A stretch of 64,000 bases of DNA from Asterochloris sp. CNOR1 (lineage: Eukaryota; Chlorophyta; Trebouxiophyceae; Trebouxiales; Trebouxiaceae): contig OZ017760.1 of NCBI GenBank assembly GCA_963969365.1, positions 248,001-312,000 on the forward strand, in the 5' to 3' direction. This document shows positions 7,399-59,500 of this stretch, piece by piece. How positions within the stretch are numbered: the first letter of the stretch is position 1; each line of letters starts with the position of its first letter. Under the pieces are notes generated by a model, which saw only the letters and a program-made list of their open reading frames with translations, made no database searches and was not told the origin of the DNA. Both the position numbers and the translations under genes were made by a program.

Positions 7399-7427
7399 AG
7401 GGTTGAACCCTTGCAAGCTTGGCCAAG

Positions 7428-7445: not shown

Positions 7446-7853
7446 GCCTTGCTTTTGCTGTTCCACTGCCTGGCAGCATGTACATGGTCCATGGCCAATG
7501 CACTCCCAGGCCATATTGCCATGCAAATGACGTTTCAGGGGGGTCAAGATGCCATGCCTTCATCTGCGCCTTTCCATTGAAATGCAGCCAAGTGGCCACC
7601 GCTAACTGCTCTTTCACACAGCTCGCTGGAGCCATACTAGCTGCAGCACTGAGGGTGCAGAGCACAATGGTGGTGTTGAGCAGTCACCCAAGGAAATACT
7701 GTCTTGGCAATCAGATCCTCTCGCACTGATCTTGCCGTGGACCAAATGGGAATGTCTCTCTGAGCTGAACTTCTGTCTGACACCAGGTAGGTCTGAAGCT
7801 GGAATATTTTCACTGTCGAAGCCCAATCACCAGCCTGGTACTGAGGCATCAGA

Positions 7854-9831
7854 ATGGCGTCACTGGCAACGATCCACGCAAGGCCAGGCCTGAGGGCTCC
7901 CCAAGCTGCAGCACGGACAGCTTCCACCAGGCGTGCGCTCGTTGTGGCCCAGAGCCAGGTGCAAACTCGGCAGGCTGCCAGCAGTCAGGACTGAATCTGA
8001 GCTGCACACTGCGCTATATCATCACTCCTGCATGTGCCTGGCCCAGCATTTTGGGACTCACTGTCTGCGATCCCAGATTGCGCACTGCTGCCAGCCGTGT
8101 GTGTAGCCAGTCCCTTTTACAGGATGTCCTGCCTGGCCAGGTCACTAGGCGGGAGCGCATTGCGGCAGCAGGGCTGGCAGCCGTTGGAGCCTTGCATCTC
8201 ACACTGTCAGGTGGGCCAAGTTGTCTTTTCTGCTGTCTCTAACAGCTTGAGTGTTGTGCCACTGACAAGAAGATCAGGGCAGTGCCTTTGACATAGCTGC
8301 ATGTCCCCAGCCTTGCCACTGCACAAGCTGCATCTACGACTGGTGCATTACCAGCCGTGTCCGAGCAGGAGACAGCTGCCATGCATGTGCAGCCCTACAA
8401 GAGCCACAGGCACATTGCAGCTTTGCTTTTGCAATCTTTGTCAAGCGTTGGGCGGCACCTGCATTGGTTGGCAGACAGAGACCTCCCTTTTTTTGGCCTC
8501 GACCTGCTGGCAGAACTCCTCCTGGCACACTTTCCCAGCAATGCGCAGCAGCACGTGCTGCTGTCGAGCATGCTCAAAGTGTCTTACAGGGCATCCTCAA
8601 AGAAGCAGGCATGCTGAGCCCCACGCTGTGCGCAATTGCAGCCCCCTTGGCATTTGTGGGCGACACTTCTGGCAACCTGCATGGGAATAGTGACCCCTTG
8701 CACCAAATGCTTGACACAGAAGAGCACCCATCTGCATGCAGGCCCCTCCCTCGCGTTTGTGGGCAACACCCCTCAGGACCTACGCGAGAACACTGCCCGT
8801 GCCACCCCCAACATTGAGCTGGGCAAGGACGCTGCAAAGGCCGTCGACAGGAACAAGCCGGCGCTGCCCAGCCCTGGCCAGGTTCAGGACAAAGTGAAGG
8901 ACGCCAGCCGCAAAATCAAGAACGAGGTGAGCCCTGCACGGTGTGGGCTGGGTGGCACCTGTAGACCGGCAGGCAAATGAGCTGCACTGTTCGGTGTAGT
9001 AGCCACATTATGAGCCGATGTGCATGTCATGCTGCTGTACTGGGGTGCAAAGGATAGACGTGGGCCAGCCCCAGAGCAGACCATGCTTGCCACAGCCTGA
9101 CAGCAGGCTGGTGGAGATGCATTCCCGGTCTAGCTGTGCACCTGTAGCACCGCATCACACTCACAGAGTCAGGCCACTACAGCCCGTCAGCTGCAGTAAG
9201 GTGGCAGCCCCTCCCCTGCAGCTCTCTGCCGACAATCTGCCTGGCCCTGAAGATGTGCCTAGCAAAAACAGCCTCGCACAGGCAAGGAGCGCCAAGAATG
9301 AGAAGGCCGGAGGGGTCGCTGGGGGATCGTTCAGCGTCACCTCTGGCACCTCCATGCTCCCTAGCTCTCATGTGCGCACATACGACTTTGCACGCAGTAT
9401 CAGGGCTTGTGCAGTACGGGCTGTTTGCCAAGCGTCACCTTGGGCGTTTCCATGCTCCCTAGCTCTTGTGTGACGCACAGACTGCCATACAAAAAGTGTT
9501 GGCAGGGGAGCCAAAGGCAGGGTCCAGCTCTGGCACATGCATGCACAGATAAAAGTTTTCAAGGCCATGCAACCTGAGGTGGTTGAAATCGACAGTGCAA
9601 CCCACAAGGCTTGGCAGGAACCACAGCGCAACATAGTGACTGACATTGACTCTGGCCTGGCTGCAGGCTCAGTTCGACCTGGCATTGGGTGAGCTCAAAC
9701 CTCTGAAGGAGTCTGCCAAGAAGCCTGGCCTTTTTGATATTATCAAGCAGAAGGCTCTGACCAAGGAGTCGCCTTCTGTGCAACTGAACAAGAAGGGGGG
9801 CACACCCACCCCTGCCCCAAGTTCCAAGTAA
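7854..9831 (+). CDS. Thylakoid-lumen protein with twin-arginine signal, function unknown
   Basis: Five exons join in phase: 7854-7958, 8111-8210 (or 8123-8210), 8742-8926, 9222-9281 and 9667-9831, giving about 204 residues. Residues 1-35 (MASLATIHARPGLRA...) are rich in Ala, Arg, Ser and Thr with no acidic residue, a typical chloroplast transit peptide. Then RRERIAAAGLAAVGALHL (from about residue 48) is a twin-arginine plus hydrophobic core ending near a small-residue cleavage site (GGPSLA), as in Tat-pathway lumen proteins. The mature part is small, lysine-rich and hydrophilic (KVKDASRKIKNE; KPLKESAKKPGLFDIIKQ), with a Pro/Ser tail and no domain I recognise. The fourth intron appears to use a GC donor (CAG|GCAAGG, 9282). 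The third exon has a diverged upstream copy at about 8638. Targeting is well supported; the function is not known to me. Confidence 0.68.
8635..8700 (+). repeat. Splice-junction echo of lumen-gene exon 3 start
   Basis: GGCATTTGTGGGCGACAC here matches the true exon start CGCGTTTGTGGGCAACAC about 104 bp downstream, and the preceding 'gcag' is kept. In frame it reads PLAFVGDTSGNL against SLAFVGNTPQDL in the exon. Confidence 0.65.
9325..9475 (+). repeat. Two-copy intronic tandem repeat, ~98-bp spacing
   Basis: CATGCTCCCTAGCTCT occurs at 9353 and again at 9451, each preceded by a similar 'agcgtcacct' segment. It lies in the last intron of the lumen-protein gene. Confidence 0.7.
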
Positions 9832-10262
9832 AGCCCTGAGCGCCCTTGCTGGCCCCTTCTTGCCTCGCAATCAGACAATCCTCCAGGAAGTCCCTTTGCC
9901 TAATGATGTCATTAGAGACGTGGCTGGCATGTTTATTGGCATCAATTTAAACAAGTAGCAATGATCATTGCTGCTGTGCCAGGACTGGTGGAGGGGATGG
10001 TGTCATGAATGCAAGCTCAAACACAGGCATTGCTGTATTGTGTTTGCAGCGCGTGCGCTGGCTACTGCCGCAACAGATGGAGCAGTGCCCCATGTAGACA
10101 ACCAAGTAAAAAGCTGATGCCAGGTCACAGTCAGCAAAGTCTGGGATGGGACGTCACTGTCGAGGCCAGCATTCCACAGGCGAGGTGTCCACAGACCAGC
10201 GCTGTGTCACAGCCAGTGTGCCTAGCAACTCATTGAATCGTCATGCAAGCCGGCTGCTAGTG
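9832..10262. other. Convergent intergenic region
   Basis: This holds the 3' ends of the lumen-protein gene (plus) and ATP23 (minus). I see no coding exon and no clear TGTAA signal for either gene. Confidence 0.45.
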
Positions 10263-12097
10263 TCAGGGCCGGCGGTCAAAGGGGGCGGTGTCCGCAAAGC
10301 AGGGCTCGAACACAGCGTCTACAGCTAGCTTGCTGCGCAGCCCACGGCAGGCTGGGTTCATGGCCACAGAGATCTCGGCGCGCCGCCGGACGCACTTTTG
10401 GTGCTGCTTCGCGATGGAGGTGTGACCCCTTTGGAACTCCTGCCACCAGTCGCAGTCACCACTGAGCGTAGCTGCACGCACCTGCACAGGCATGGGTGCC
10501 TATCAGCCTGCGGGCTGGTGTTGTGTGGTGTTGGCAGCAGCCTCCCGCCTGACCATGGCAGCAGCCTCCCGCCCGACGATAGCAGCAGCCTCCCGCCCGA
10601 CCATAGCAGCACCCCCCCGCCTGACGAAAGCCGCAGCCTCTGCTGTCTGTCGCTGCACAAGTTTCGGCAGCCAGTCCCCCAGGCCTCCCAGCTCACAGCA
10701 AGGGTCCCTGCAGAAGGGGCTGCGTCCCTGCACAGGCAGTGTCCAGCGCCATGCCTGTTGGCATGAGGTACAGACTACTTGGTGCCACGACCGCTGCAGT
10801 CACGTCACAGCAGGCGTGACCAGGCGGCATGGATGAGCAGCGCCGCAGCGCATTGCATAGGCAACGGGATTGGCAGACCTCACTGCAGGCGTGGTGATTA
10901 CAGTTGCTCCAGTCTATGCTGGCCCCTCGGCAGTGGTCGTATGCGTGGACCAGCTCATGCACCAGAGCGTGGTTGATCTCGTCCTGGCTGGCCATGTGGT
11001 TGTGGCAGATGACCACCTGCAGGGACAGGGGCGCGCAGGGTATTGAAACTGCTCAAACCACTCCACTGCCTGCCCACCTGCAGGGACAGGCCCTCCCAGG
11101 GTATTGCAATGCTCACAACAACTCAAGTGCCTGCCGGCAGATGACCACCTGCAGGGACAGGGGCACCCAGAGTGTCACGATACTCACAATAATGTAAATG
11201 CCAGCTGGCAAACGACCACCTGCAGGGACAGGGTCCTGCAGAGGCACTGCAATAAGCAGAAACCCCACAAATTGCTGTCCTGGCCAATAGGCCAGACGGC
11301 TGCAGCAGATCACCAGCTACAAGCCCACTGCTCTACAATTGTTGGGCTTCAGAGCAGCACCAGTAAGGGACCAGCTGTCCATGGGGTTATGGCAGACATC
11401 ACCTGCAGCACCCACCATTACTGTCTGCTCGCATCGCCAAGAGGTGTGCCAGCTGCGCATTAATAAATGCTGTGTGGTGTCCCAAAGTCGCAGACATGCA
11501 CACACAGCTGCCACCTCAAGTGCAGAGCTCCCAAGCTCACGTGAGACACCTTAATGTGGGGGCCGCTTTGCTTGAGACCAGCACACCCATCTGAAAGACC
11601 TCAAGATGCAGCTTCTGCCCCGTCTTATGCAAGGTCTGAACCTTGTCTTCAGCAGGCCCCACAGCTCACCCCTTGCTCTGGCCTGAAACCTCCGCCAACA
11701 TCAAGTTCACAGTTTTCGACAGTAAAGAAGCTCTTGTCAATACGGCAGCCAGCCTGCAGTGCAGAATGACCACTGTGTCTGTGCCGAGACATTATATGAG
11801 GGGGCCTCACCAGGGCAGCCATCCTGCTATTCAAACCAGCTTACATGCTGCAGCGGGCACCCAATGTAGGGACACAGACTCGGTGCACAATGGAATAGAG
11901 CTGCAGAAGTTGCCAAGACATTTGCTGCTGTTCCACTTGATGCAGCACACCTGTCCCAGCCGTTCCATCATAAATCTGACGGTGGGGTTTCTTCTCAGAG
12001 CACGATCTATCATGTGCTGGCAGTCTGTCCTGGTGCTACCTGCCCATTGCTTCTGCTTGGGAGGCTCCGCAGGTGTGTCCTGTTGTGCTGATGTCAT
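10263..12097 (-). CDS. ATP23: Mitochondrial inner-membrane protease ATP23 (peptidase family M76)
   Basis: Four exons, all phase 0: 11951-12097, 11670-11753, 10879-11016 and 10263-10481, giving 195 residues, close to the family's usual length. The zinc-binding active site HELVHAYDHCR is at about residues 97-107, preceded by VVICHNHM and followed by the conserved NHHACSE. The last exon has LSGDCDW, CVRRRAE and the family's near-terminal FxxCFxDTAPFDRRP. Exon 1 carries the TDCQHMIDRALRRNPTVRF helix and exon 2 the ENCELDVGGGFRPEQG strand. Known role: in yeast ATP23 matures mitochondrial Atp6 and helps assemble the Fo part of ATP synthase; plant and animal relatives share the catalytic core. The cysteine-rich, presequence-poor N-terminus fits intermembrane-space import. 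Introns 2 and 3 contain tandem repeats, listed separately. The start is the only upstream in-frame ATG. It is divergent from VPS13. Confidence 0.93.
10537..10641 (-). repeat. 24-bp minisatellite in the last ATP23 intron
   Basis: Units begin at 10537, 10561, 10585, 10609 and 10633, exactly 24 bp apart. The core is GCAGCCTCCCGCCCGAC on the plus strand; the fourth unit is altered and the fifth partial. Its length is divisible by three and it is open on both strands, so it looks protein-like without being an exon. Confidence 0.85.
11011..11233 (-). repeat. Four-copy echo of the 3' splice site of ATP23 exon 3
   Basis: The exon-intron junction, on the plus strand ACCACCTGCAGGGACAGG, recurs with 'acct' at 11015 (the real site), 11076, 11147 and 11218, spacings 61, 71 and 71 bp. 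The third copy also carries the first 13 bases of the exon (GGCAGATGACCAC). Each copy keeps a complete CTGCAG acceptor with the same upstream bases. Confidence 0.88.
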
Positions 12098-12759
12098 GCC
12101 AGCCGCTGCTGCGTGGGAAAGTGGACACTCTCAGCCGAATTTATCAGCCCAAAAGTAGCACCCAGTTGTACCCCTGCTTTGTTTGCGTACCTTGCACACA
12201 ATAGGAACACCACGGTGCTGCTTTCACAAGACACCAAAACCACTGAAATACAGTATTGCGAGATTCAGGTCAGGCCTCGTAGTCAGAAATGTGCTCTGGC
12301 AACCGAACCTATCGATAGTGGGACACAGTGAAGCTGTGAGCGTGAGGTCCTGAGGCATGACCCTGTCATCCTGGCCCATCCTCCTAGCAGGCTTTGCCCT
12401 GCTGTATGGCCTCAACTGGTGAGGCCCTTGCTTCTGTGGGACTTTGCCCATTCCCAAAGTTTGCTGCAATATGCAAGACGCCTGCATCTTTGTGCTGAGC
12501 ATGCTGGCAACAAACGTCTTGCCCACATGGCATGCATGGCAGCGCTGCAGCTCTGTGAAGGCTTATATGCAGAAGTAGCTTGCCACTTGGTGCCGAGGTG
12601 CTGCAGGGTCTGCACAGGTGCCGAGGCAGCTGCTGGGCATGCTTGTGCTTCCAGATCGTGTCAGTTGCCGCCCCTGATCTGCACCAGCGCTGTGCAGCCA
12701 GCACACCCCAATGCAGGCTGCAGATCAAGACATGCTTCTTCACAGTCACATGCCCAGCC
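12098..12759. promoter_or_regulatory. Divergent intergenic region between ATP23 and VPS13
   Basis: About 660 bp lie between the ATP23 start (12097, minus) and the proposed VPS13 start (12760, plus). Both promoters should be here. An upstream non-coding or short coding VPS13 exon in this stretch cannot be excluded. Confidence 0.4.
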
Positions 12760-13919
12760 ATGCCCTACCTCTGCTGTAGGTGTTTCTCGTTGGCGGATCG
12801 GACTCTGTCAGGCGTGCTTGCGCTGGCTGCCAGCCCCTGGGTCCACCGGGGGGCAGGGCTCAATCGCCTCAGGACAAATATTTGGCAGGGTGAGGCCCAG
12901 CTGTGCTGCAGTGCTGCCTGGTCTGAGGGCAGAGAGTTGCACTTGCCCAGCTCTTCACACCGGCCCAGTGTTCCTGGCCTCAGAACATGAGGAGTGCAGG
13001 GGCAAGGCAGGCCGCACGACTGACCGCTTAACAACAACTTGCGGCTAGATCCGGCGGGCACGCCTGAGCCACAATGCTGCATGCTGCATCAGCCTGGCCC
13101 TCTCTTGACGGCATGCTGCAGCGCGGCGCGGGAGACTCATAGGTCGCTCCAATAAATCCTGGCCGGGCCGGCCCCGGTCAGCACGCTTGAGCACTGATGC
13201 TGCCTGCTGCAGGGAGGTGTTGCACCAGCTTTGCCCTTCTGTACTGGCCTGGGTGCATATGCTGCCCCTCATTGTGCACCACTGCATGGCTGTACGCTGC
13301 TGGAGCTCCTCCCTCTGCCATGTTCTTGCCATTAAAGGCAGCCTGGGGGTGGAGAATGTGTCAGCCTACACATGACTCTGCTTCAAAGCCAGTGTGGCAG
13401 GGTCTTGCCTGCACTGCAATTCCACTATGTGAGCCAATACAGCGAGTGCCTCGACAGGAGTTGTGCTGCCTGTTCCATGCAGGCGGCTTAGTTCTGCACA
13501 ATGTCAGCATCAAGCCTGGGTTTGTGGACTCGCTGGACCTCCCCTTCGCATGCCAGGCAGGCAAGTGGTGTCAGCATGCTGTGCGCATCAACGCCATCTC
13601 AACCATGTGGCCCTCTCGTTGATCTTGAGCCATTGGGCAGGTCTTCATATCTCGTCTGTACTGTTTCAGCAGCTCAGTTGGCTTGTCTTGCAGCCTGGTG
13701 CAACAGGAATGCTGCATGTTGTTGGTGATCTGGCAATTCAAGCATTGTTCAAGCAAACATAGTCTGTGTTCAAGCAGTATTCAAGCTGCACTTTCATGTT
13801 CTGCAGCATCCCTTGCCAGCCTGGAGATCTGGGTGCCCTGGTGGTCCTTTGGCACCAGGCCCTGCTGCATCAGGCTTCAAGGCCTCAAGATTGAAGCCTG
13901 CACCAGAGTCTACCCACAG
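12760..13919 (+). other. VPS13: VPS13: chorein N-terminal exons
   Basis: Exons 12760-12889, 13483-13560 and 13807-13919 join in phase. They read RTLSGVLALAASPWV, LNRLRTNIWQGGLVLHNVSI and SLASLEIWVPWW, which parallel the family's opening helix, 'L+lgIW.G.v.L.nl.lk' and 'iG.l.l.iPW'. This end contacts the donor membrane (usually ER) in known VPS13s. The donor after exon 2 is GC, not GT. Confidence 0.82.
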
Positions 13920-16900
13920 GTCAGCTGCTGGCAGAGGCAGGCACTCACTTTGCTGCATGTGCCTGCATCTGAGCTTCTGGTACTGCATCCGCCAGGTACA
14001 GCAGGGCAGGCACTGTATGTGGTCCAGCACTGGGCATGCATGAAGCTTAGTGCAGCCACCCAGGCACAGTGGAGAGCCATGCAGGCACTGCGTCCAGCCA
14101 CGCAGGCGCAGCAATAGGTGCCTGCAAACGCAGGCCAGACACAAGCAGCTCCTGCCTCACCTGCTCCGTCATTGCCCCTTTACCTGTGAAGGTGATGCAG
14201 GGCTGAGTCGCTGTGCAGAGGTAGCAGGGCATCCCGCTGCCGCCTGCAGGCTGCTATCAGGAGCGATGCGGAGGCGAGGGCGCAGTGCAGCGCGGCCAAG
14301 CAGACACGGGCGCGCTTGGCTGCAGTAGAGGGGGTCCTCTGGGGGCACAGGCCGGCCTGGCTGACAGGCAAGCGCCTGCACAGGCAGCGTGGGGAATCCT
14401 ACACCCTGTGCAGGCAACCCTACGCCCACGCTTGCAGGTGCTGAGCCTCAGCATGCATAATGAGGTCCCAAAGATCTGTCCTCAGCATCACAGCACATGC
14501 AGGGCTCTTGTACACACAACTTGATGTGCACATGCACAGCCTGGCAGCCCGTCTGTCTGGTGGCACTCCAACTGCATCTCTCCCTGCCTGCAGGCTACCG
14601 TGCCAAGCTCTTCCTGCTGAAGCATGTGGGCTTTCAATTAGTCTCCCGCCTCGATGTGGCACTTGAAGGGCTCAGCCTGCGCTTTGAGCTGGACCAGCCT
14701 GTGGACCTCGTGGCGCCCCAGCCAGGTGCAGCTGCTGGGGTGCTTGCCATTAAGTGACTGCTTGGCACCCATGCCAAGAGGGCAGGTCACCCTTTGGGCT
14801 GGTCCAGTCAGTGGACTTGCTGGCGCCTCAGTCAAGTGCGGCCCCTGCACCTGTCGGGACCGAAAGGCACTGCAGCAGCTGCTGTGCGACCTGCGGTGCT
14901 GTGCCGCAGTGCTGGACTGCAGCCCTGACGTGCCCATCAGCTGTCGTCACCTCAACACAAATGAGCTCTGCAGCCCTGGTGGCTATGGCATTCTGTGAGC
15001 TGCTGTGATCTGTTGCTTGCTGAGGAGACCTCCTGCTCAACAAGAGCTCAGCTGCCTTGCTGCAAACAAGCTCCTGGCCTGCTCTATTGCCGACACGGTC
15101 CCAGCCATGAAGCATCTTGAATAAGCGATGCTTCCAGTGTATTGGATTGCAGCTTGGACTCTTCCTGTGCAGGGCATGAGCAGTCCCACCTGCCTGGCGT
15201 GGGCGATGTGCTGGGGTCTTCCTGCCTGCTGCTTCTGCGCAGCCTGGCGCTGCAGGGGACCAGGGGTAGCAGCTATGGAGTGGTGGCCACTGCTGTGCAG
15301 CTGAAGGGCCTCAACCTGGACGTGATGCCCCGGCCTCAGGGCGGTGAGAAAGGTGGGTGCTGAACACGATTTGGCTGGTGCTGTGGCCCACTCAGGACAG
15401 CGAGATGGGTGGTGCTCATCCCCGCAAGCTGTTGCTGTGGTGGCACCAGTTGTGGAGTCGTGGCCACTCAGGGCAGAAAGGTGGGTGATGAAACCCATCT
15501 GGCTGTTGTGGCGGCGGCCACTGCTGTGCAGCTGAAGGGCCAGAACCTGAAAGGCATGCCCCAACCTCAGGGCAGCATGAAGAGCACTTGTTGAGACCCA
15601 CGCGCTGTTGCTGCGGTGCCCGCTGCCGTCCAACAGAAGGGCCTCAATCTTGATGGCATGCTCTAATCTTGAGGCAGCCAGCAAGTTGGGTGCTAACCCA
15701 CGGGGGCTGGATGTGCAGCCGCCACAGGTATGGTGCTCAATGCAACATCTACAGGCGGACCAGCTTCAGCAGCACCTGATATGCAGCAGCTGGTGCACAG
15801 TGCTGCCTCACAATGAATGGCATGATGCTGCAGTGCGCCCGTGGAGCGTGTTGCGGCGGTGGAATGCTGGTCTCAAGCTGGGGTGGCGCATGGCCTCAGG
15901 GTTTCTGGATAGGGTTTCCAGGCACAGCCCTGCCAGCAGGGCCCCAGTCCTAAGCGTGGAGGTGTCTGCGGCAGCCCTGCTGCTACACTTTGACACAGCC
16001 GCCCTCACCACTCTCTTGGGCGTGGCGGCTGTGGTGATGCACTTTGGGCAGTACAGCAGGCACCGCAGGCTGCGCCCTCAGGTGACCTGCACCGCAGCTG
16101 TGTGTGGAGACTGGATTCTGCTGCGTTCCCTGTCAGCGCATTTTGAGCAGACTCACTAGTCCTGCTGAAGGTCAGCGGTGTCCATGGAGGCGTCTGAGCA
16201 GCTACTCCTGCGGCCATTGAATGTTGCCAGCTAGGCAAGGCAGCTATGCTCTATTGGGGCTCAGTCAAGCAGGTCGGTGTCGTCTGGCTGCACCTTTGGC
16301 ACTTACCATAGAGGCCCCCCAGCAAGTTGATGCTCCTGCCATGCAGGTGCCAGTGCTGAGTGCACCCCACCTGTGGTGGCAGCATGCAGCGCATGCAATC
16401 TTGGCTGAGCGCACAGCCGCCCTCCAGTCTGGGCTTGGACGGCCCCTCACAGTACAGCAGCTACAGAAGCGGCGCATGTATACCAGGCTGTACATGCTGC
16501 AGGCAGGAAGGATTCACAGGTGAGCTGCCTTGTCTGGCCACCCAGCCATCGCAAAGGGGGTTTGCACCACATGCTCAAATTGCTGCAGGCAGGCAGCATT
16601 CACAAGTGACCTGCCTTCACGGGCCCAGTTGCTGTTTTAGGTCCATGAGCACGCATGCTGCACTTGAGGTGGGAGCTGCTGCCATGCAGAAATGTAGCAC
16701 AGCACTGTAGGCAGCCTGCCCCTGCCCAGGACTGCTGTGTATCAAGATCAGGCAGCAAAGCCGTGGACCTGGGTCGAAGCATGTTCTGCAGGGTCTGGCA
16801 CAGCACCTGCCTAGGAATGCTGTACATCAAAGCTGTGCTGTCCCCTTGAGCTGGAGCATGCCCTGCAGGACGTGGCGCAGCATTGCGGGCAGGCTGCACC

Positions 16901-49900: not shown

Positions 49901-52725
49901 GTCCTGCTTCAGCCTGCATGAGCTTGCAGCACGCCTGCCCTCAGCTGCGTGTATTTGCCATGGGACTTTTGCATCCTCCTGGCCTGCGCATCAGACTGGT
50001 CCCTTCCCTTCATGGCAGCTTTGCATGGTGCGCATGGCCTGCCCTGCGATGCACCAGTCCCGTGGATGGCAGTCCTGCCTGCTCAGAGATGCAGCTGGAG
50101 GGCCAGCGGCACCTTCCTGGTCTGCTTGCTTGTTTCCTGTGCTAGGAAGTCCTGAAGCAGCTGTGCAGCAAACACTACTCTCAATCAAAGCCATCTCAGT
50201 CAACAAACACAGCTGATTCGATAAACACATAGCCTTGGCTCTTTCTTCTCTACAATGCAGGCAAGGGACACAACTTGGGCGTTCCAGTCGTCACTCATGT
50301 GCAGATTACTGGATCCATCTCACAACTGCCACTGCCTGCAACCTGCCCCTGCAGCAGCTTCCAGTGCCCTCTCCTCCCACAAACAAGGGAGAGACAACTT
50401 TGCGCCATGGAGCAACACTATAATGCACAAACGCACACTTCCCAGCTGTTAGGTGCCGGGTGCCAGACTCCCAAGCGCCCTTACCTAAGGTCCGATTCTG
50501 GCCGTGCAGGCGAAGGCCGCAACTTCGCAAAGTGGAACAACACCTTGATGCGCATGCGGGCGCGCCCCTCCCACCTGGCAGCGGCAGAGGTGGTGATGGA
50601 CGTCCTGCAGAACAAGGACAACAAGGCGCTGGTCTTCACGGACCAGCGCCTTGTCTACATCAACCTGCAGCGGCAACGCGCACGGTGGTCCTTCTCCCTG
50701 GACCACCTCACTCACGTGACGGAGCATGGTGAGGCCTGAAGCTGAAATAGCCACCACAGGAAGACAGTATGAGCTGAGTTCAGCAGTAGTCCTTCTTTGC
50801 CTGGACCCTTGCCTTGGTGATGGTAAGCCCTGAGGTGCATGTGGCCACCACAGGCTCTAAGATGGCAGACTGCGATTGACCCATTTCCAGAGGGCTGCAC
50901 ATGACAGGCGGCCACTCACATCACCAACCAGCCCTCCATGCCTGCAGGTCTGACCGTGCACCTGCACCACACTCAGACGCTGCATGTGCAAGCCCGCGCG
51001 CGGCAGGTCAACATCAAGCTCCCCGCTCGGAAGCATGTGGAGTGCCGCTCCCGCGATCTGCACCAGAGCCTGCTGGTCAAGCTCAGTCGGGCCATGGCAC
51101 GGCACAGGCGATCTACAGAGGATGATCCCCCAGCTGAGCTCCCCCTGCTGCAGCAGGCCTCCCTGGCTCAAGGTGGGCTTGACTGGCTGCTGCCTGCCTT
51201 TGCTCAGTAGCGCTCAAGGTTGGCTTGTGCGGCAGCTGCCTGCCTTTGCTCAGCAGGGCTGAAGCCAACAGCTGTGGCGCAGTCTTGTGTCATTGGTGTC
51301 AGTGCAGCAATTGGTGTGACAGTGTAGCTAGTCGCATGCAGTCTGGCTACTGCTGTGGCCCACAGCTAGAAACAAACTCAAAGCCAGAGTTAGCATATTT
51401 TGGGAGCCACAGACTGTAGCAGGAGGGCTTTGATGCATGCCTGGTCGTTGCCATGTGACAATCTCTGCAGCACTGGTGCAAGATGATGTCAAGCGCTGCA
51501 TCGAAGCCAGGCAGCCCATTTCTGTGTAGTATGGCAGCACTGTCTTGGTGTTGGAGGTGTGTGCAGGTACAGGTGCCTCTGGGGATTTGTGTGCAGGCAC
51601 AGGTGCCTCTGCTTCTCACTGGCCATGTCAGGCGCTCCTGTAGACTGATAAATTGGCAATGACGGCTGCCAAGAAGCAACATATCACTTGGCTTGATTGC
51701 CTGACTGCCTGCCTGCAACAGCACCGCACCTCACGCATGCCCCAGCTGGCTCATGGGCGCCTGCATGGCCCCCAAACATAACGCACAGAGCCAGGCCAAG
51801 CAGCCCATTTGACTGCCTTGCTGCCTGTCTGCAGGGGACCTGTCCACTCGACTGCCTGGCTGCCTCGCTGCAACAGACCTGCACGTTTCGCATGCGCAGC
51901 CGCCTCAGCTGTGCCTGGCTGCCTTATGAAAACTTGCAGTGAGCCATGCTTGACTGCCTTGCTGCCTGTCTGCAGGGGACCTGTCCACTCGACTGCCTGG
52001 CTGCCTCGCTGCAACAGACCTGCACGTTTCGCATGCGCAGCCGCCTCAGCTGTGCCTGGCTGCCTTATGAAAACTTGCAGTGAGCCATGCAATTTGAGGC
52101 GGCCTTGCTGCCTGCAGGGGACCTCCACATCATGCACGCTCAGCCGCCTCAGCTGCGCCTGCCTGGCCCAGTCGCAGCAGGGACAGAGGGCCAGACACTC
52201 ATGCGCCGCGTGAGCAAGCTGCTGTCCAGCCACCGCCGCACTGCAGACGACGTGCTGCTGGGACCGGCTGTGGACCGGGCAGGTGCAGCCCGGGAGGCAG
52301 GCCGGACGGTTGGATGGCTGGCCTCACATGACCCTGCGGGCAGCAAGCGCGGCAACGGTGACAGGGCTGCAGCTGCGAGTGCTGGGGATTCAGTACCTGG
52401 CACGCCGCCAGCAGCACTGCAGCACCAGTCAGACCTGCTGCAGCTGCAGGTAATGCACCAGCTGAGTCAGCTGGCCTCTGGGCAGAGCAAGCAGGGGGTG
52501 GCTCAGAGCCTACAAGCCATCAGGATCATGTGCAGCTCGTCCATGCAGCTGGCGATTGGCAGCAGTGGGGCGGCAGGGCCGCACACAGCTGCCATTCAGT
52601 ACATCAACAACCTCCTGCAGGGGCAGCAGCCCCTCAAAACATTCTCGCAGCAAAAAGCTGCCCTCCAAGCCATCTCCCTGCTCTGCTCCACAGCCCTACC
52701 TCAGACTGCCTCTTCCAGCAATTAG
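12760..52725 (+). CDS. VPS13: VPS13-family bridge-like lipid transfer protein (giant, ~70 exons)
   Basis: One collinear series of about 70 phase-compatible exons encodes roughly 3,500-4,000 residues. VPS13 proteins are long hydrophobic-groove rods that move lipids in bulk between membranes at contact sites. The order here matches the family: N-terminal chorein motif (LRTNIWQGGLVLHNVSIKPG, then LEIWVPWWSF), a long series of groove-forming beta exons, a VAB-type repeat region (EVSVFCPYWIVNKTNL; VDYAWDEPMQ), C2-like segments, KGIGISFVEASVL, the ATG2-like C-terminal helices and a PH-like end. VAB repeats recruit adaptors and the C-terminal helices bind lipid droplets or mitochondria in other organisms. 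The C2 content recalls plant VPS13M proteins. The start at 12760 is the first in-frame ATG of the chorein exon and may be preceded by another exon. The second intron has a GC donor (13561). Introns are rich in junction echoes. Individual exon limits in weak stretches (14100-14400, 18900-19100, 40800-41000, 42500-43500) are uncertain. Confidence 0.9.
14682..14850 (+). repeat. Echo of the exon end and donor at 14725
   Basis: CTTTGAGCTGGACCAGCC at 14682, inside the exon, is copied as CTTTGGGCTGGTCCAGTC at 14792, 110 bp on. Similarity continues past the donor site (CCAGCCAGGTGCAGC against CTCAGTCAAGTGCGGC). Confidence 0.75.
15280..15690 (+). repeat. Three or more copies of exon segment plus donor (~15260-15350)
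   Basis: CTGTGCAGCTGAAGGGCC occurs in the exon at about 15293 and again, nearly unchanged, at about 15523. A third, more diverged copy begins near 15606 (CCAACAGAAGGGCCTCAA). Two partial copies of the donor side ('aaaggtgggt') lie between. In frame the copies read VQLKGLNLDVMP, VQLKGQNLKGMP and VQQKGLNLDGML. Confidence 0.8.
16490..16630 (+). repeat. Echo of exon end and donor at 16519
   Basis: TGCTGCAGGCAGGAAGGATT followed by CACAGGTGAGCTGCC at 16495 is copied at 16581 with CACAAGTGACCTGCC, 86 bp on. The copy covers about 20 exon bases and about 20 intron bases. Confidence 0.82.
16684..16920 (+). repeat. Three-copy echo of the acceptor and exon start at 16869
   Basis: The acceptor CTGCAG plus exon start (GACGTGGCGCAGCATTG) has two upstream relatives, after 'gcag' at 16689 (AAATGTAGCACAGCACTG) and 16791 (GGTCTGGCACAGCACCTG). 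Spacings are 102 and 77 bp. ACTGCTGT in the exon is also kept in the farthest copy. Confidence 0.78.
18567..18820 (+). repeat. Three-copy echo of an exon end (TGGCAAGCAGCAGG)
   Basis: TGGCAAGCAGCAGG occurs at 18626, 18714 and 18804, 88 and 90 bp apart. The first and third copies share a further 60 bases upstream, from GAGGAGCC at 18567 and 18745. Confidence 0.82.
19090..19310 (+). repeat. Echo of the exon starting at 19255
   Basis: The exon opening AGCTCAGGTACCAGCAG (19253) has a relative AGCTGAGGTATCAGCAG at about 19095. The next exon segment TCTGAAGTCGGTGGAGCCTG (19275) has one at 19185 (TCTGAAGTCAACGGAGCCTG), 90 bp apart. Confidence 0.78.
20900..21245 (+). repeat. Three-copy echo of the exon end and donor at 20948
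   Basis: The donor context CTGCAGGTGGGG recurs at 21112 (CTGCAGGTTGGG) and 21223 (CTGCAGGTGGGG), each preceded by a relative of the exon end (GCAGCCTTCTTCGAAAAG; the copy at 21204 reads GCAGCCTTCTGTGAGAAG). Confidence 0.8.
20973..21006 (+). repeat. Long guanine tract
   Basis: A run of 21 G, one T, then 12 G, in the intron about 25 bp after the donor at 20949. It could form a G-quadruplex in RNA. Exact length in a raw assembly is uncertain because such tracts are error-prone. Confidence 0.85.
21618..21800 (+). repeat. Two-copy intronic repeat after exon 21462-21618
   Basis: The 'gcactcag' at about 21622 and at 21719 open two relatives about 75 bp long, sharing CATCAC.TTGGAAGCTC-like and TGGCTGTGCA(A/G)AGC-like blocks, about 97 bp apart. 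Confidence 0.7.
23208..23237 (+). repeat. Long cytosine tract
   Basis: Runs of 6, 15 and 7 C separated by single T, inside the intron after exon 22843-23046. Its strand is opposite in composition to the G tract at 20973. Confidence 0.85.
23398..23610 (+). repeat. Three-copy echo of the acceptor at 23588
   Basis: CCCAGCG after a 'cag' occurs at 23403, 23509 and 23592 (the true exon), 106 and 83 bp apart. The middle copy retains GTGCAGGCCCCAGCGCAGGA, which matches the real junction TGTGCAGGCTCCCAGCGCTC. Confidence 0.75.
30338..36296 (+). other. VPS13: VPS13: VAB-type adaptor-binding repeat region
   Basis: Exons include 30591-30848 (EPMMEPWPVSIEY, LNLVVTPAAF), 31073-31238 (LVNRSGLRLSYW), 31574-31737, 32049-32240 (SPFRVENHTSYRLEF), 32421-32593, 32966-33224, 33410-33640, 33860-34020 (FCPYWIVNKTNLTIRL), 34413-34630, 34868-35161 (TKVITVTPRYVLFNNS), 35488-35592 (APFHWEDADARFEM), 35815-35961 and 36188-36296 (VDYAWDEP). 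These are hallmark VPS13 sequences. In yeast this region binds PxP-motif adaptors that choose the target organelle. Confidence 0.88.
33260..33475 (+). repeat. Echo of the exon at 33410
   Basis: CCAACCAGTGGGGCACAG at 33271 copies CCAACCAGTGGGCCACAG at 33450, inside the exon, 179 bp apart. The flanks are also similar. Confidence 0.75.
37520..37725 (+). repeat. Echo of the acceptor and exon start at 37649
   Basis: About 77 bp at 37523-37600 repeat the real junction at 37617-37694 with roughly four of five bases identical, offset 94 bp. Exon side: GATGTGAATGCCCAGCTTCA against GACGTGGATGCCCAGCTTCA. In frame the copy reads DVNAQLQKLDIKQN against DVDAQLQEFDTKQN. Confidence 0.9.
38405..38560 (+). 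repeat. Echo of the exon starting at 38515
   Basis: GACCAGCATGGCCCA occurs at 38418 in the intron and at 38531 in the exon, 113 bp apart, with related flanks. Confidence 0.75.
38955..39080 (+). repeat. Echo of the acceptor at 39056
   Basis: GCAGGCCACCACCATG at 38960 copies the true junction GCAGGCCACGACCATG at 39052, 92 bp apart. Confidence 0.75.
40120..40215 (+). repeat. Short tandem copies after the donor at 40121
   Basis: CATGCTGCAGCTCTGA occurs at about 40129 and again at 40168; a third, weaker copy (CCATGCTGCGCATGTG) follows at 40205. Spacing is about 38 bp. Confidence 0.72.
41945..42290 (+). repeat. Echoes of the C2 exon starting at 42234
   Basis: CTGGGGCA with matching flanks occurs at 41975, 42049 and 42258 (the exon). 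The copy at 42025 keeps 'tag|GTCACTATGTTTGACAAG' against 'cag|GTCAGCGTGTACGGCAAG' in the exon. Confidence 0.8.
44078..44480 (+). repeat. Echoes of the C2 exon end and donor at 44114
   Basis: The exon end AAGTTGACTTCAGATGTC then TTTCTGGGCCAGGTAGG has relatives ending in 'ggccagg(c)' at about 44250, 44400 and 44473. Each carries an 'a(a/g)ctgac' start and a 'TGTxxTTGGGCCAGGCAAGC'-type end. Some copies carry GCAAGC where the exon has GTAGGT. Confidence 0.75.
45065..45225 (+). repeat. Echo of the exon starting at 45169
   Basis: GCAGGTGCTGCATGCTCTG at 45067 copies GCAGGTGCTGCACGTCCTG at 45165, about 98 bp apart, with similarity continuing for about 60 bp. In frame the copy reads VLHALFKEQHMQ against VLHVLLEDLRMD. 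Confidence 0.85.
45169..49797 (+). other. VPS13: VPS13: conserved C-terminal and ATG2-like helical region
   Basis: Exons 45169-45316 (INSMQLDNQLLTSTHPVVL), 45889-46026, 46395-46550, 46889-46953, 47151-47264 (YFEQLEIQTIRCNLTLIP), 47584-47748 (FMSPSMLSERVIRHL), 48144-48353 (LHEMHKILGQVDILGSPIV), 48754-48901 (KGLAVLTLDQDYIARFRDRP) and 49555-49797 (PVVGWQEAGAVGMGLGVIFG) follow the family order closely. The last three are the amphipathic helices shared with ATG2 that bind lipid droplets and organelle membranes. Confidence 0.9.
49445..49620 (+). repeat. Echo of the exon starting at 49555
   Basis: The copy from 49446 and the exon from 49551 are 105 bp apart. In frame they read GFAKYSVVGSHKDGALG and GIAKDPVVGWQEAGAVG; the acceptor 'gcag' is kept in both. 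Confidence 0.88.
49755..49935 (+). repeat. Echo of the exon end and donor at 49797
   Basis: GCACTTTGGCATGTTCCTGG at 49766 is copied at 49865 as GCACTTTGGCATGTTTCTGG, 99 bp on. Similarity passes through the donor: GCAGCAGGTGGGTGCTGCTT against GCAGCAGGTGCGTCCTGCTT. Confidence 0.92.
50255..50580 (+). repeat. Three-copy echo of the PH-domain exon start at 50510
   Basis: 'aactt' anchors fall at 50272, 50396 and 50521 (the exon), 124 and 125 bp apart. In frame the middle copy reads RDNFAPWSNTIMHKRTLPS and the exon RNFAKWNNTLMRMRARPS. Confidence 0.88.
50510..51172 (+). other. VPS13: VPS13: PH-like domain
   Basis: Exons 50510-50728 and 50948-51172 read RNFAKWNNTLMRMRARPS, then ALVFTDQRLVYINLQ and RWSFSLDHLTHV. 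This is the 'lvltd.rvlyl......W.i.l..l..v' pattern of the PH-like domain that ends VPS13 proteins. Both junctions are phase 1, matching the exons on either side. Confidence 0.8.
51809..52090 (+). repeat. Perfect 141-bp tandem duplication in the last VPS13 intron
   Basis: 51809-51949 and 51950-52090 are identical by eye over all 141 bases. Each unit contains an acceptor (CTGCAG|GGGACCTG) and a relative of the last exon's start: read in frame, DLHVSHAQPPQLCLAAL then stop, against DLHIMHAQPPQLRLPGP in the true exon at 52118. A further diverged unit appears near 51690-51780. Confidence 0.95.
52118..52725 (+). other. VPS13: VPS13: last exon, low-complexity C-terminal tail
   Basis: The exon starts after CTGCAG at 52112-52117 in phase 1 with the previous exon and ends at TAG 52723-52725. 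It opens with DLHIMHAQPPQLRLP, continues as an Arg/Ala/Gly-rich linker, and ends with a predicted helical Gln/Ala/Ser-rich stretch. This tail beyond the PH-like domain is not part of the common VPS13 core that I know. Confidence 0.7.
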
Positions 52726-53509
52726 AACTTGACATTGTATGTCGTTGCGATTGAGCCTGCCAGCAGCTATTTCTGCTGGCATTCATGCTGCTTCTCCCTT
52801 TTGTTGTGCACTTTGTAGCCATTGCACCATGAGGCAGCTAGCAGAGCTGAAACTTGTCATGAGGCTTGTAGACTCTCCAAGATTCTGTAAGACGGCGCGG
52901 CTCTGGTTTCGTGGCAGCAGGCAAGCATTGAAAGGCACACGATTTGGAAATAATCCCTGTGCCAACTCAAAGGAATAAAAGACAGTGTGCAAAAGGAAGA
53001 AAGGGCGGCTATCAAAAAGGTAGCGCGCGTGCGGCTGAGCAGCGAATAGGCAATCCCCGTGATAACGGGCCTGCAAGTGTGTGAAATCGCTGCTGTACAG
53101 CATTGCTGAAAGCTTTGTCACAACAGCTTTGATACGAAGCCGCAAAGTGGGCGCTGGGCACAGCAGCCAGGCTTGTGATGGTGTGAGGGGGTGGGCAATT
53201 GCAGGTGCGTGTCTAGTGGCCCTCACATGCTGCACAGGGAGAGTCTGCTGCGGGTGCCGCATGGAGGAGGGACGATTTCAGTAGTGTCAGGAACATCAGG
53301 GCAGAGGCCCTGACGCATGCTGCTGCAACTCCCCTGGGGGTGCCTGTTGCTTGCTGACACTTAGTGTCTGCTGCGCAACACAGTGATTGCTTGTCAGTCC
53401 AGTGTGCAGCTGGGCACTGCTGCCCGACAGTGGAAGTGGCTCCATAGGTCACATGCTTCCAGGGCACAGCGTCCCCAGCCTGGGGGCCAGTGTGCTGGTG
53501 GCAGCAGCC
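52726..53509. other. Convergent intergenic region with VPS13 poly(A) signal
   Basis: It lies between the VPS13 stop and the stop of the downstream minus-strand gene. TGTAA at 52886-52890, about 160 nt after the VPS13 stop, is a likely poly(A) signal. No coding exon is supported. Confidence 0.5.
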
Positions 53510-56500
53510 TCACTGGCTGAGCGAGGAACGCAGCTCCCTCATGTTGTTCTGCATCCAGCCCTGCAGGCTGGCCAGATGGGCCCCCAGGGAGGCTGCAGCT
53601 TTGGCACCCAGTGGCGTCCTCTCAGTGTGTGGACTGGAGTCCACCATGACCTCCTGCAGCCTGCAGCCAAGGGTGGTATAGGGTTTGGGGTTTGAAAGAA
53701 CAAGGTCAGTCAAACTCAAATGAGACTGTACAAGCACAAGTGCACAGTTGCGCCATGCTGGGCAGATGGGGTGTCAGTGGCCCAGGGCAGCAACAGGCAG
53801 GGGTACCAGGCTTGATGACAAGCAAATGATTGCCCAGGTCATGGCTGGCTGCAGCAACCACAGGCAGGCCACTTGGCTGAACCAGAAGCAGGTGATGGCT
53901 GACGTGGCCTGAGGGGGGGCAGGCAGTACAGCTGCCTGTTGCAAATGCGGACGTGCATGCCGGTGAGCTTATTGAGTGCTTCATTCAGCGCCTGCCAAGA
54001 CGACTTGACTGCAAGCTCAATCGTGCTTCTGAGGCCCAGTCATGTGCAGCTGGCGGTCAACCCTGATGCAGGGGCAGGCGAACCAAGCACACGGCCTGCT
54101 CACATGCCAAACTTATGGGCGAGCAGCTGCTGGTCATCCACAGCCCTGAGCAGGGACCTCTTAGTGCGCATCACCTCCCCTGCAGCGGAGGTGGGAACGC
54201 TCAGCAGTCTGTCATGATGCAAGACACAGCTGCCCTCAGCGTCACCACCAGACCGTTAGGGCAGGCTGCCGGCAGACTAAGGAGTTGGGAAGAGGCAACT
54301 TGAGGCAGCTTGCTGGCTGCCATCAGATCAAGGAGCTCGAGAGAGGCAACTTGAGGCAACGTGCGGCACTTGCCAAGAACTTCCTTGATGCAGCGCGCAC
54401 AAGGCTGATCACCTAGCGCAGGGTGACCAGGGCACAGCTCAAGCTCTCTTGAGGTGTGCAGCACGACAGTGTCTGCAACGACGGCCTGGGCGTCTGCCAG
54501 GACTTGACACAAGGCAGAGCGCCTTCACACATGTTGCTGCACGAGCCAGAGGCTGCTGCACTGCCAAGGACTTCAGATTGACACCCTCCATTGCAAACAA
54601 AGCAGGCAGACTTATCTGCACTCACCCTGGGCATCTGCCAGCTCCACCTTGACCTCCACCAGGTGGTCCATCAGGACTGAATTCTCCTTGGACAGCCTCA
54701 TCACCTGCAGCGCGACCCAAACTGCTCATGTGCCATGCAGCAGCAGCTTCATGCAACAGGGCACGCCAAGTCTGGTGACTGGGGCAGAGCTCTCCTCACA
54801 TGACCTCGCCACCTGAAGCAGGGCACCCTTTGCATTAGTCAGTCATGATAAAATCACGGCGGGAAGGCTGAGCTCTCCCAGTTAGCCATGTGACCTGCAG
54901 CAGGCTGTGTTTGTGGACTGAACCACATTGCAGCAGGCTGTGCTTGTGAACTGAACCACATTGCAGCAGCAGCAGCATGCACTGCCACACAGCTTACTTT
55001 TCAGGGGAGTACTTTTGGCCAGCTGCATCACCTGCAGCAGGGCAACAGCCAGCCATGCTCAGCACGCTGCCCTGCTCAGGTCCTCTGTGGACTGATCACA
55101 CTAACCCCAGACAAGGAGTTGAGGAGGCATGGCAACAGCCCACGCAGGCAAACATGTGCTAGTGGTGCTGCAAGAAGTTGTTGGAGAACCGCCTCTGCCT
55201 GTGACTCTGACAGCCTGGCAGCCGCCCGCTCAACCAAAAGGGTGCCAGGGGCACCTCAGGGTTCGTCGAAAACCCACCTCTGCCTGAGGCTTTGTCAAGC
55301 TTCGTGGCCGTCTGCCCAACCAAAAGGCTGCCAGGGGCGCCAGAGGGTTTGTGGACATCCATCTCTGCCTGTGAGTAGACAGCCTAGCCCGGTCGAATAA
55401 AGGGTGCCAGGGGCGCCTAGAGCTTAAAACCCCACCTCTACCGACTCGACAGCCTGGGAGCGCCCCGCTGAGCCGAAGGTGTTTGATGACACCCAACCAC
55501 TGTAGGAGACTCGAACAGCCTGGGTGCAGCTGGCTCAACCAAAGAGTACGAGGGGAAAAAGCCTGAGGGCTTCTGGAAGACCCACCTCTGCCTGAGACTC
55601 GGACAGCCTGGAAGCAGCCCGCTCCACCAAGCTGCCCGCCTGCCCATCCTCTGTGATGCAGGCCGCAGCCACGCGGTGGGCTGCCTGGGTGTTGAGCTGC
55701 CCGCGCAGGTGTACATTTTCCTGCTCCATGCGTCTGCAGAACATGAGCCACTAACAATCTTACCCATTGGTGATGGAGAGGTGTGACACCTCTGACACAC
55801 TATGCTGGAAGATGGATGTCTTTTGAAGCGACCAGGGACAGCTCTGCTGCTTCATGAGCCTGCTTAAGTACATGGCAACACCTGGCAGCCAGCCTGCATG
55901 CGCTGTGCACTCAGAAGAACAGCTGCTACAACCAGCAAAACTTGAGCACTAGAGCAGCAACCCTGCCAACTGACAGCATGCACAACCACAACGCACACGA
56001 TGCTCTCTTGACGGTTGTCCGCCCGACAGAAACAGACATTCCTGTAGGGCACGCCTTGGGGTGCTGCCAGATCTCCTGACCTAGATCCTTGTTCTTGTCT
56101 GAAATGCCCTTCATGGGCTAGGTCTGGAGGTGCCTACCTGACTGTGGCCAATAGGCGCTCCTGCATCCGATGCATGTCCTGCAGCCCATCCTCAGCGCCC
56201 TGCAGAGGCACCATACAGAATGTTAAATGCTGAATCGGGGTCCAGACGTTGACAAGCACAGGGGCCTCTCGTCACCTGAAATAGCTGGTGAGGAAAGCCT
56301 GCAGGCTCAAAGGGCTTGCGTCCGGGAAACCAAACCGGCTGACCCCGACACAAGCAGGCGCTTCCAAACAGCACCTCAACCACATGCAGCTCCCTCAACA
56401 GAATACCCCAAACAATGGCATGCATTGACAAGTGCTGGCGAACAGCCTGTGCTGCCAGCCTGCAGCACTGCCGTGTTATCAGCTCTCAATTTCAAACAAG

Positions 56501-59500
56501 GATGCAATTTTGCATCCTTCAGGGTCCATCTTGCCTCAGGCTCAACTTTTGAAGCACACAGACTTACATGCAGAGTGAGCCTGCCATGATGCATTCCACT
56601 CACCTGCAAGGTGGGCTGGCATGATCATAATGGTTGTCACACATCCCACAGGCACAACCCTGTTCTGAGGCCACACCTTGGGAGGACAGCATGGCACATG
56701 CTGCAATATTCCTTGCCCCTGCTCAACATCTATGGCCCCTGATCAACACTTGTGGCCCATGCCAAAGCCTGTGCACTGCTTGAGCAGACACTCACCTCAG
56801 ACATCGTGCATACATTCCAGCAGCCTGCAGGGGATGCCCCGTCAGGCAAGAGCAATTCTTAGCAGACTGCACATGGCAGCCTGTGCAGTCAGCACACTCA
56901 CCTCCAGGCGCGCCTGCACCTCGGCAGCCTGCAGGGGTGACCCGGTCAGGCGCGACCACAGCTGGCTGCGGGCTGCCTGCATGACCTGCCCCAGGTCTGG
57001 CCGGGCGCTCAGCTCACGGGCCTCTGCCAGGGCACCTGCAGGGCAAGCATGCCAGGGGAATTGGCACCTCCATTGGATTCCAGATATATATTAAACCCTC
57101 AGTCCTACATCAAGAGCAGGGTGCAGGGTTCTGACAGAGGGTACCTGCAGGGCACCAGAGGCTACACACTGAGTCATTGCAAGAGGGCTTGACAGCGCAC
57201 ATATTCAGGGTGGTGATCAGCTCATGAGCCCACAAAGGTGAGGCTGAGGCTGCTCACTGGTGCTCACAGGGTCCTGTCTGCCCTTTGTGGGGCATCTGAT
57301 GAGAAACATAGGCTGCACAGGATTGTTCAGGCTGATAGAGATTGAGCATAGGAAGGCCACTCAGATGATGTGAAGAGATAGGGCTGGGGTTGTAGTCATG
57401 GGTGCTTGATTGGCACCTGACTCTGTGTTGATCACTGCTGAGGGCACAGAAAGGCCACTCCAGGACGAGGCCCCAGTCAGGACGACCCTGCAGGGCTCCC
57501 ACTGCTGGGCAGTGAGGGCAGCCCCCAAGGCAGACCTCTTCTGGGCATAGTGGCAATGCATGATTGCAGGTCGCCCACCAGGAGAAGCGCATTCTGCACA
57601 CCAAAACTTGTTGCAAACCAACCCTTTACCCAGGCCTGGCCTGGCAGGGGCCACCAGATCTCAGCGCACTGCAGCTTGGCCTTGCACCCATTGCTTCACG
57701 ATTGACTCGTCGTAGCAGCAAAGAGCACATTGCAGCCCAAATGCACATTTTCCGTTGTGCGAATCTGTTTCGAGCAGATACGCCACTGCCCCCCAAAAAG
57801 CCCTACTTCCCTGTCCCAGCACAGCACAGCCCTTCTTGCATATGCATCAAGGACGTACACCACCCTCCAAGCCCCCTGTCCTGTCACACACAACTCCCTG
57901 CAGCTCACTCTCCAGGCGGGCCTTCTCCTGGTCTGCCCGCTCCAGAGCCGCCGCCATCTTCCTGATCTGGGCCTCATACACCTCTGGGAGGGCAGCCCCC
58001 TGCAGGCTTGCACGACGGTGAGGGTCCCTAGCTGGGCTGGTGCTGCTCTCCCTGCTGCCCCCACTCCTACTGCCTGGCGTTCCCTGGAAGACAGGGGCAG
58101 GCAGTGGCATCACCTCTGGGGTGGCCGGGGAGAGGCGCTGGCGATGCAGGGCCTGCTTCAGGGCTGCCTCCGCTGCGTGGAGGTAGTCATTCTGCAGGGC
58201 ATGGAGACATGTGTTGGAACTGGCCCCATTCTAACTGCTGCCGCATGTGCAAGGTCTCTACGTGGGCCGCCTCAAGTGGATCAACCTGTCAACGTCTGAG
58301 ACATGTGTTTGAAGTGTCTTAAAGAGTTTTGACAGGAGCAGGGCTGTGCAGGGTCTGCTTGAGGGCTGCCTTGACTGTGTGGAGCTGGTCACCTGCAGAG
58401 CACGAGGACCCTCCCCAGACGAGTGAGATTGGACAGCCATGTTGAGTGGGCTGGCTGCTTGGCAAGCTGTTGACATGGCTGCTCACAGCAGGGGTCAAGG
58501 TGTGGCTGCTGGCCTCAGCCTGTGCAGCAATACAAGTCAAGGCGGCTGAGATGCAGACAAGTGCCGCTCTCAGGATTCTTCTTGCGCCCGACTTCTTGCT
58601 GCAGACTGAAGAGGTGGCACTTGACAGGCATGCTTTCTGATATCGTGTTTTCTTGCAGAGTGCGGAAAGCTGGACCACCACCTCTGTTGAGCGCTGCCTG
58701 CCTGGGGCGCATGCCTTCGGCTTTTAGTTTCTTGCGGGACCATTTCCGCACATTGACTGACCTGAACAGCGGGTGCTGCAGCTGCTGAGCACTCCAAGCT
58801 GCTCCTGGCCTGCCCCACCTCCCTGGCAGGCAGCTGGCGGGCTGCATCCTCAGCAGGAGACTCAGCAGACGGCAGATGCCGCACTGCCTGGACGTCTGGG
58901 CTCGAGTGTGCAGCTTCGTGGCTGTCGTGGCTGCTGCTGCTTTCGCAGTCATCCCAGGCATCGCGGCTGCGGCGTCTTCCCGTGGCCGGCCTGCACACAA
59001 GCACAGGACACTGGGGGACCCTTTTGGAGCAGTCAGGGGGCCCAACAGTGTGGTCCAAGATTGCTCTGGGCTTTACTGGATCCATGCATGGCAATGCAAG
59101 TAGCTGCGGCAGACCTGAAGGTAGTACTGCAGACTGCTGATGTATGCCTGCATGCAGGGCGAGAGGCGTCACAGCAGGGCCAGTGTCTTCATCTGACCTG
59201 ATGGTTGGGTGCTGCTAATGAGTGCCTGCAGGTGGAAGCAGAGGCATCACAGCAGGGGGCAAGCCAGAGGTGGCTCCACCTGCAGGAAGGCAGGCTGCCT
59301 GCAGACATTCAGGGAGGCCAGGCCTGCCTGCAGTGGGGACCCCTCCGGCTGGCGCGCCTAAAGTATGGGGCAGCTGCAGATGCTCGGTCTGCAGTGCCAG
59401 TGTGGAGTGGCTGACAGGCACGCGACAGGGCCTGCAAGGGTGCGCCTGGGAGAGCAGCTCCCAACCTATGCGACTCTGCAAACCGAGGCGTGCGAGTGAC

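Follow-up and report, generated by a model that had tools for sequence, protein, structure and literature searches.

Decayed copies of splice borders in the adjoining introns of a green alga, Asterochloris sp. CNOR1

Small tandem duplications are reportedly the main source of short insertions, as put forward by Messer and Arndt in 2007. In flies and primates, about 80-90% of short insertions are described as tandem duplications (PMC2374710). For rice, insertions of 10-1000 bp are presented as tandem or partly tandem copies that arise by patch-mediated break repair from staggered nicks (PMC7407515, citing Vaughn and Bennetzen 2014). In a potato RdRp gene a tandem duplication across an intron-exon boundary has been described, and the same gene carries an 83 bp intron-internal tandem duplication that left the gene structure unchanged (PMC4974935). 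The latter source also outlines the Rogers model, in which an intron is gained by duplication of an AGGT segment, and cites internal gene duplication (Gao and Lynch 2009). Small tandem duplications, including the boundary-crossing one in potato, are therefore already in print. Here we describe decayed copies of exon-intron junctions, referred to as echoes, in the introns of the green alga Asterochloris sp. CNOR1. They were noticed in a first-pass annotation of one stretch of 64,000 nucleotides (the window, C15:248001-312000 of a 56.4 Mb genome in 21 contigs). The presence of splice-border copies inside the neighbouring introns is real.

The analysed DNA amounts to 314 kb, namely the window and 250 kb from two other contigs (C1 and C3). 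Gene models were obtained with a purpose-written hidden Markov model (HMM) gene finder, which was self-trained on the window and the C1 and C3 samples without transcripts and converged on 685 introns. In these models the donor consensus is AG/GTGAG, and the acceptor TGCAG/G is nearly invariant. False exons were probably called inside several echoes, e.g. at 49847-49896, and give rise to pairs of a complex class (see below).

For the border test, 60-nt probes consisting of exon sequence only were used at a score of at least 30. The intron adjoining the border held a copy for 41 of 1083 borders (exon ends 25/542, exon starts 16/541). In a comparison set beforehand, introns of the same gene two to three positions away gave 5/3159 (2/1583 for exon ends, 3/1576 for exon starts). 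The intron on the other, wrong side of the same exon yielded 6/916 (3/458 for either border type), and inverted copies were found for 0/542 exon ends and 1/541 exon starts. Both comparisons named in the first-pass annotation as able to refute the echoes, with non-cognate introns and with the wrong side, thus came out in their favour. With 40-nt exon-only probes at a score of at least 28, the own intron held a copy for 29/542 exon ends and 13/541 exon starts, while length-matched introns of other genes led to an expectation of 0.4 and 0.5, respectively.

A census of direct pairs relied on our own banded gapped self-alignment (offset 15-600 bp, score of at least 32) with dinucleotide shuffles as null. 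It returned 150 pairs versus about 2 summed over the shuffle bins. A separate BLAST search for inverted pairs over three sequences (score of at least 34) gave none at offsets of 20-250 and two at 250-600. The direct pairs comprise 25 of exon end plus donor, 13 of exon end only, 21 of acceptor plus exon start and 5 of exon start only; 42 lie inside introns, 4 inside exons, 4 on the wrong side and 6 between genes, and 30 are complex. In those complex pairs that were looked at, an echo had often been called as an exon. Hence 64 pairs lie on the side given in the first-pass annotation and 4 on the other, so that the sidedness is confirmed, but the word "always" is slightly too strong. The junction-type pairs touch 30 predicted introns of the window in all four genes. 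Since some of these introns are split by false exons, the earlier count of about 20 introns in four genes on both strands is fair.

The following echo loci were found in the window (positions of the window; offsets in bp; TRF, Tandem Repeats Finder).

9333..9482, plus strand: donor echo, exon end and donor 9371/9372 copied 98 bp downstream with 83% identity.
11010..11233, minus strand: array of acceptor echoes with exon start and TGCAG acceptor (TRF and pair search); the real site is 11016/11017, with copies at steps of 61 and 71 bp upstream in gene direction.
14682..14842, plus strand: donor echo, offset 110, 78% identity, GT retained in the decoy.
15282..15694, plus strand: layered donor echoes of one exon end, offsets 128-132, 231 and 333.
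16495..16625, plus strand: donor echo, offset 86, 84% identity.
18567..18824, plus strand: exon 18697-18771 copied into the introns on either side, at distances of 88 bp (upstream) and 90 bp (downstream).
37522..37692, plus strand: acceptor echo, offset 95, 83% identity, decoy changed from TGCAG to CGCAG; the rest of the unit is similar as well (z 5.4).
40118..40213, plus strand: donor-side echo with a 38 bp unit.
49445..49604, plus strand: acceptor echo, offset 105, 78% identity.
49748..49994, plus strand: donor echo with a unit of about 99 bp, a second copy that retains GTGCGT and a weaker third copy (TRF and pair search).
51166..51264, plus strand: donor echo with a 46 bp unit (TRF).
51809..52090, plus strand: perfect duplication of 2 x 141 bp, intron-internal, a single locus in the genome (TRF).
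55182..55630, minus strand: array of donor echoes and intron-internal pairs with steps of 76-88 bp and larger ones of 150, 170, 243, 305 and 393.

At 18567-18824 it looks as if the middle one of three tandem units gets spliced in. In the C1 sample, positions 122349-122832 hold an array of short exon-plus-donor units with steps of about 86-113 bp, in which several splice sites are intact.

The duplication at 51809-52090 is exactly two units long. It is indeed perfect, as noted earlier, but it does not cross a junction, because both 141 bp copies lie wholly inside a predicted intron. Within the unit lies an older, diverged copy of the acceptor plus exon start found at 52117/52118 (54 aligned columns, 42 of them matching), and the locus is most plausibly an old echo that underwent a recent duplication inside the intron. 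At the junction 48901/49555 the alignment of the predicted protein to VPS13A and VPS13C chains from the Protein Data Bank (PDB) continues across the outer junction without gaps. Consequently, the echo at 49445 upstream of the exon start at 49555 lies outside the conserved protein.

Echoes were also found in the two other samples. With the stricter exon-only probe, 15/120 introns of the window, 19/381 of C1 and 5/97 of C3 carry one; the corresponding numbers of borders are 16/216, 20/700 and 5/167. The frequency in the window is thus about 2.5 times that of the other samples (16/216 versus 25/867 borders). Perhaps this is a result of the window having been picked for its echoes.

The commonest spacings of the pairs are 85-115 bp; a further group falls at 20-55 bp. 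The range of mostly 60-140 bp that had been proposed is therefore appropriate as the mode, but it misses the 25 of 150 pairs with offsets of 15-55 bp. An apparent lower size limit of about 60 bp turned out to be an artefact, since a blastn self-search in chunks had lost the short offsets. Spacings of about 170-200 and 300-330 bp may represent two and three steps.

If the duplications are truly tandem, the unit's intron portion has to have been copied too. This remainder was assessed in 37 valid cases; one donor case (37815-38514) had been dropped due to a degenerate null, and one donor and three acceptor cases had too short a remainder. Significant similarity (p<0.05) was detected in 17 of the 37 cases, with about 2 expected, and we therefore regard tandem duplication as the best mechanism. 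Head-to-tail duplication of the whole unit is thereby seen for part of the set. Four stretches, namely three echo-bearing predicted or merged introns and the perfect 141 bp repeat, were searched genome-wide and match only their own locus and the immediately neighbouring sequence. A gain of whole introns according to the Rogers model would leave an offset equal to the intron length, with the exon-end copy ending at the acceptor and the exon-start copy beginning at the donor. A scan of the 579 introns measuring 50-400 bp, of which 559 had sufficient exon sequence beside them, detected no such arrangement at 60% ungapped identity or more, and Rogers-type intron gain was rejected, although gapped or older cases would escape such a scan. 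The earlier proposal that existing introns underwent tandem duplication across their junctions is supported by the direct orientation, the similar unit remainders, the lack of intron-gain signatures and the single-locus nature of the searched stretches.

We consider it probable that the echoes stem from small tandem duplications without splice-site targeting, of which the straddling copies survived longer. Duplications of about 20-160 bp, with 85-115 bp as the commonest spacing, would arise without need of splice sites. A unit straddling a donor or acceptor would be tolerated if splicing stays at the outer site, as suggested by the protein alignment at the one junction described above; the protein would then be unchanged and the intron longer by one unit. 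The inner copy, presumably neutral, would decay afterwards together with its decoy splice site. In contrast, the exon copy would be held by selection on the protein, so that changes accumulate mainly in one member, and the pair can be recognised for longer than a duplication lying wholly within an intron. For this reason splice-border echoes would dominate the surviving record. No special cause is required for the one-sidedness, since the protein would be altered by a copy on the opposite side. The repair step may consist of staggered nicks with fill-in and end joining, by analogy with the proposal for rice.

Uniform placement of 100 bp units on the gene models, keeping only units that leave exons intact, results in 51% internal and 49% straddling units. 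The share among detected pairs was then simulated with decay (exon rate 15-20%, also 5%, and single-base indels), on which all pair ages given here rest. Straddling pairs make up about 50% when recent, 60% at 0.2 substitutions per site, 80-86% at 0.25 and about 95% (up to 96%) at 0.3. Observed at 80-120 bp are 29 straddling pairs out of 38 (76%) and 9 internal ones, or 30 and 9 if clustered within class. The aligned pieces of these pairs are short (median 47.5 bp), and the pairs are therefore apparently old. According to the simulation, the observed share can result from uniform placement if exon-anchored copies decay more slowly, and junction targeting is not needed.

Several results nevertheless weigh against this account; they concern the placement of the pairs, their timing and the stop codons in the echoes. 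If the age effect is ignored, the raw straddling share at 80-120 bp exceeds placement (p 0.001 against 51%). At the ages needed, the simulated pairs have an identity of 0.78 and a length of 57-69, versus 0.82 and 47.5 observed. For loci with an identity of at least 0.9, the class in which the age effect should be least, 11/21 are of junction type versus 7.2 expected by placement (p 0.07); leaving aside two wrong-side loci, the ratio is 9/19 versus 6.9 (p 0.22). Furthermore, the unit remainder was without significant similarity (p<0.05) in 20 of the 37 cases.

These placement results would fit a process that favours splice borders, with duplications or templated insertions occurring preferentially at junctions, e.g. 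coupled to transcription or splicing. The spacing peak at 85-115 bp also speaks for such a process, as do the lack of any intergenic locus in the clustered 80-120 bp set (38 loci) and the 15-55 bp loci (9/19 of junction type versus 32% by placement, p 0.12). However, exon-anchored decay can explain the share at 80-120 bp at the apparent age, intron-internal pairs are common (42/150), and the excess at high identity is not significant; with most of the unit aligned, 5/11 loci are of junction type versus 2.9 expected (p 0.14). There may be a mild preference for junctions; a process that favours splice borders we regard as unlikely.

With respect to timing, a steady rate of untargeted duplication fits poorly for the larger units. 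Among 39 loci of 80-120 bp, recent ones number 0 versus 10.5 expected and middle-aged ones 2 versus 12.4, while short old loci number 26 versus 4.5. The classes of 55-80 and 120-160 bp deviate in a similar direction. In contrast, the numbers in the 20-55 bp classes are roughly those of a constant rate (recent 9 versus 10.9 and 2 versus 3.0; old 4 versus 0.9). The lack of recent 80-120 bp pairs reflects either a duplication process that was common in the past and is now rare, a loss of recent copies in the assembly, or an error of the decay model. Larger indels would shorten the aligned pieces, but are not expected to account for the lacking recent copies. It is conceivable, though rather improbable, that intron growth in this lineage was episodic: a past wave of 80-120 bp duplications, maybe favouring transcribed or spliced DNA, would now be nearly silent beside a separate, steady process of 20-55 bp. 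If so, the exon-anchored echoes would be the fossil record of this wave.

The fate of the copies bears on whether selection maintains the inner copies, be it as alternative splice sites or as regulatory decoys. Some decoys are of full strength, e.g. in the C1 intron 95908-96610 with a position weight matrix (PWM) score of 7.3 for both sites. Moreover, the echoes contain few stops, namely 1 in-frame stop in 348 codons versus 3.9-5.2 expected from 162 mismatches (p 0.10-0.03). This deficit, the last of the contrary points mentioned above, weakly suggests that a number of copies may formerly have been read as exon. On the other hand, mismatches between exon and echo in 41 alignments amount to 67/487, 60/485 and 93/484 at codon positions 1, 2 and 3. 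The rates at positions 1 and 2 are indistinguishable (p 0.58), and the extra mismatches at position 3 are as expected of an unconstrained echo and silent change in the exon. Coding upkeep of the echoes was rejected on these grounds, with the stop deficit as a weak contrary hint. The decoy dinucleotide is kept in 8/15 donors (GT) and 8/11 acceptors (AG) at a score of at least 30, and in 9/25 and 12/19 at a score of at least 24. GT is hence lost in 7 of the 15 higher-scoring decoy donors. Neither purging nor upkeep of decoy sites is clear, and they are not clearly different from drift. Selective retention of the inner copies is accordingly quite improbable.

Individual weak pairs may be due to chance similarity, caused by the strong TGCAG/GTGAG consensus and local composition. 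There is hardly any variation in the acceptor consensus, and some weak pairs begin exactly at TGCAG. An acceptor-side copy near 50262 that was convincing by eye scored 22, which is chance level, and was dropped. As a general account, however, similarity by consensus only is contradicted by the exon-only probes with their same-gene and inverted (1/1083) controls and by the number of pairs in comparison with the shuffles; it was rejected and seems very improbable to us. Introner-like or other dispersed mobile elements could in principle have built these introns, as repeated sequence does lie within them and introners occur in green algae. A dinoflagellate parasite is reported to carry "invasive intronic elements" (PMC7789003), but since all four stretches searched lack matches at unlinked sites and the copied sequence is the local exon, an origin from such elements was rejected as hardly credible.

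The suggestion that the duplications could be a main source of intron length could not be confirmed. Of the intron bases, 5.1% lie in aligned copies and 7.4% in spans of pairs at most 250 bp apart, both being lower bounds because older internal duplications are invisible. A detectable pair is present in 102 of the 685 introns, with a median length of 255 bp versus 203 bp.

Four genes on both strands of the window were predicted by the HMM.

4993..9831, plus strand: predicted gene 1 with an exostosin GT47 domain, 15 exons (self-trained HMM; Pfam PF03016, E 5e-11); its 3' part may be a second gene.
10263..11822, minus strand: predicted gene 2, peptidase M76 (HMM; Pfam PF09768, E 2e-46).
12012..52725, plus strand: predicted gene 3, VPS13-like lipid transfer protein with 93 predicted exons, some of them false and inside echoes (HMM); a C-terminal piece matches VPS13A (PDB entry 9yg5, E 1e-16) and VPS13C (9yqp, E 1e-13).
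53510..59878, minus strand: predicted gene 4 (HMM), with no Pfam family at E <= 0.001.

Within gene 3, a G-rich tract at 20973-21016 (34 bases nearly all G, TRF) closes a predicted exon. This tract may be a weak spot of the assembly or annotation.

In a literature search covering titles, the openings of abstracts and few subscription papers, no systematic description of decayed splice-border copies was found among the matches listed. Long introns are a conspicuous trait of Chlamydomonas and its relatives; the passage on this subject leaves the driver of length open and calls it probably ancient (PMC8226300). After a straddling duplication the exon copy is frozen, and the intron copy therefore stays recognisable and datable after ordinary intron duplications have faded. 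Hence the rate, size and timing of intron growth could become measurable from one genome, with the wrong-side introns as a built-in control. In addition, the echoes supply natural pairs of near-identical competing splice sites.

The echoes share with the fly and primate insertions that they are direct local copies adjoining their source (PMC2374710), but here such copies are read in a decayed, fossil state from the introns of a single genome, most often spaced 85-115 bp apart. As in rice, the insertions are tandem copies, and for rice a concrete mechanism is offered, although the passage on rice insertions makes no mention of splice borders (PMC7407515). In line with the Rogers model, a tandem duplication within a gene supplies extra splice sites (PMC4974935); the exon-end copy at the acceptor and the exon-start copy at the donor, however, are seen in 0/579 introns here. 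Internal gene duplication, as cited in the same source, likewise duplicates exon and intron sequence within genes. In the potato RdRp gene, too, the duplicated unit crosses an acceptor. There the boundary-crossing copy made a new intron (PMC4974935), whereas in Asterochloris splicing appears to pass over the inner copy, and an intron already present becomes longer.

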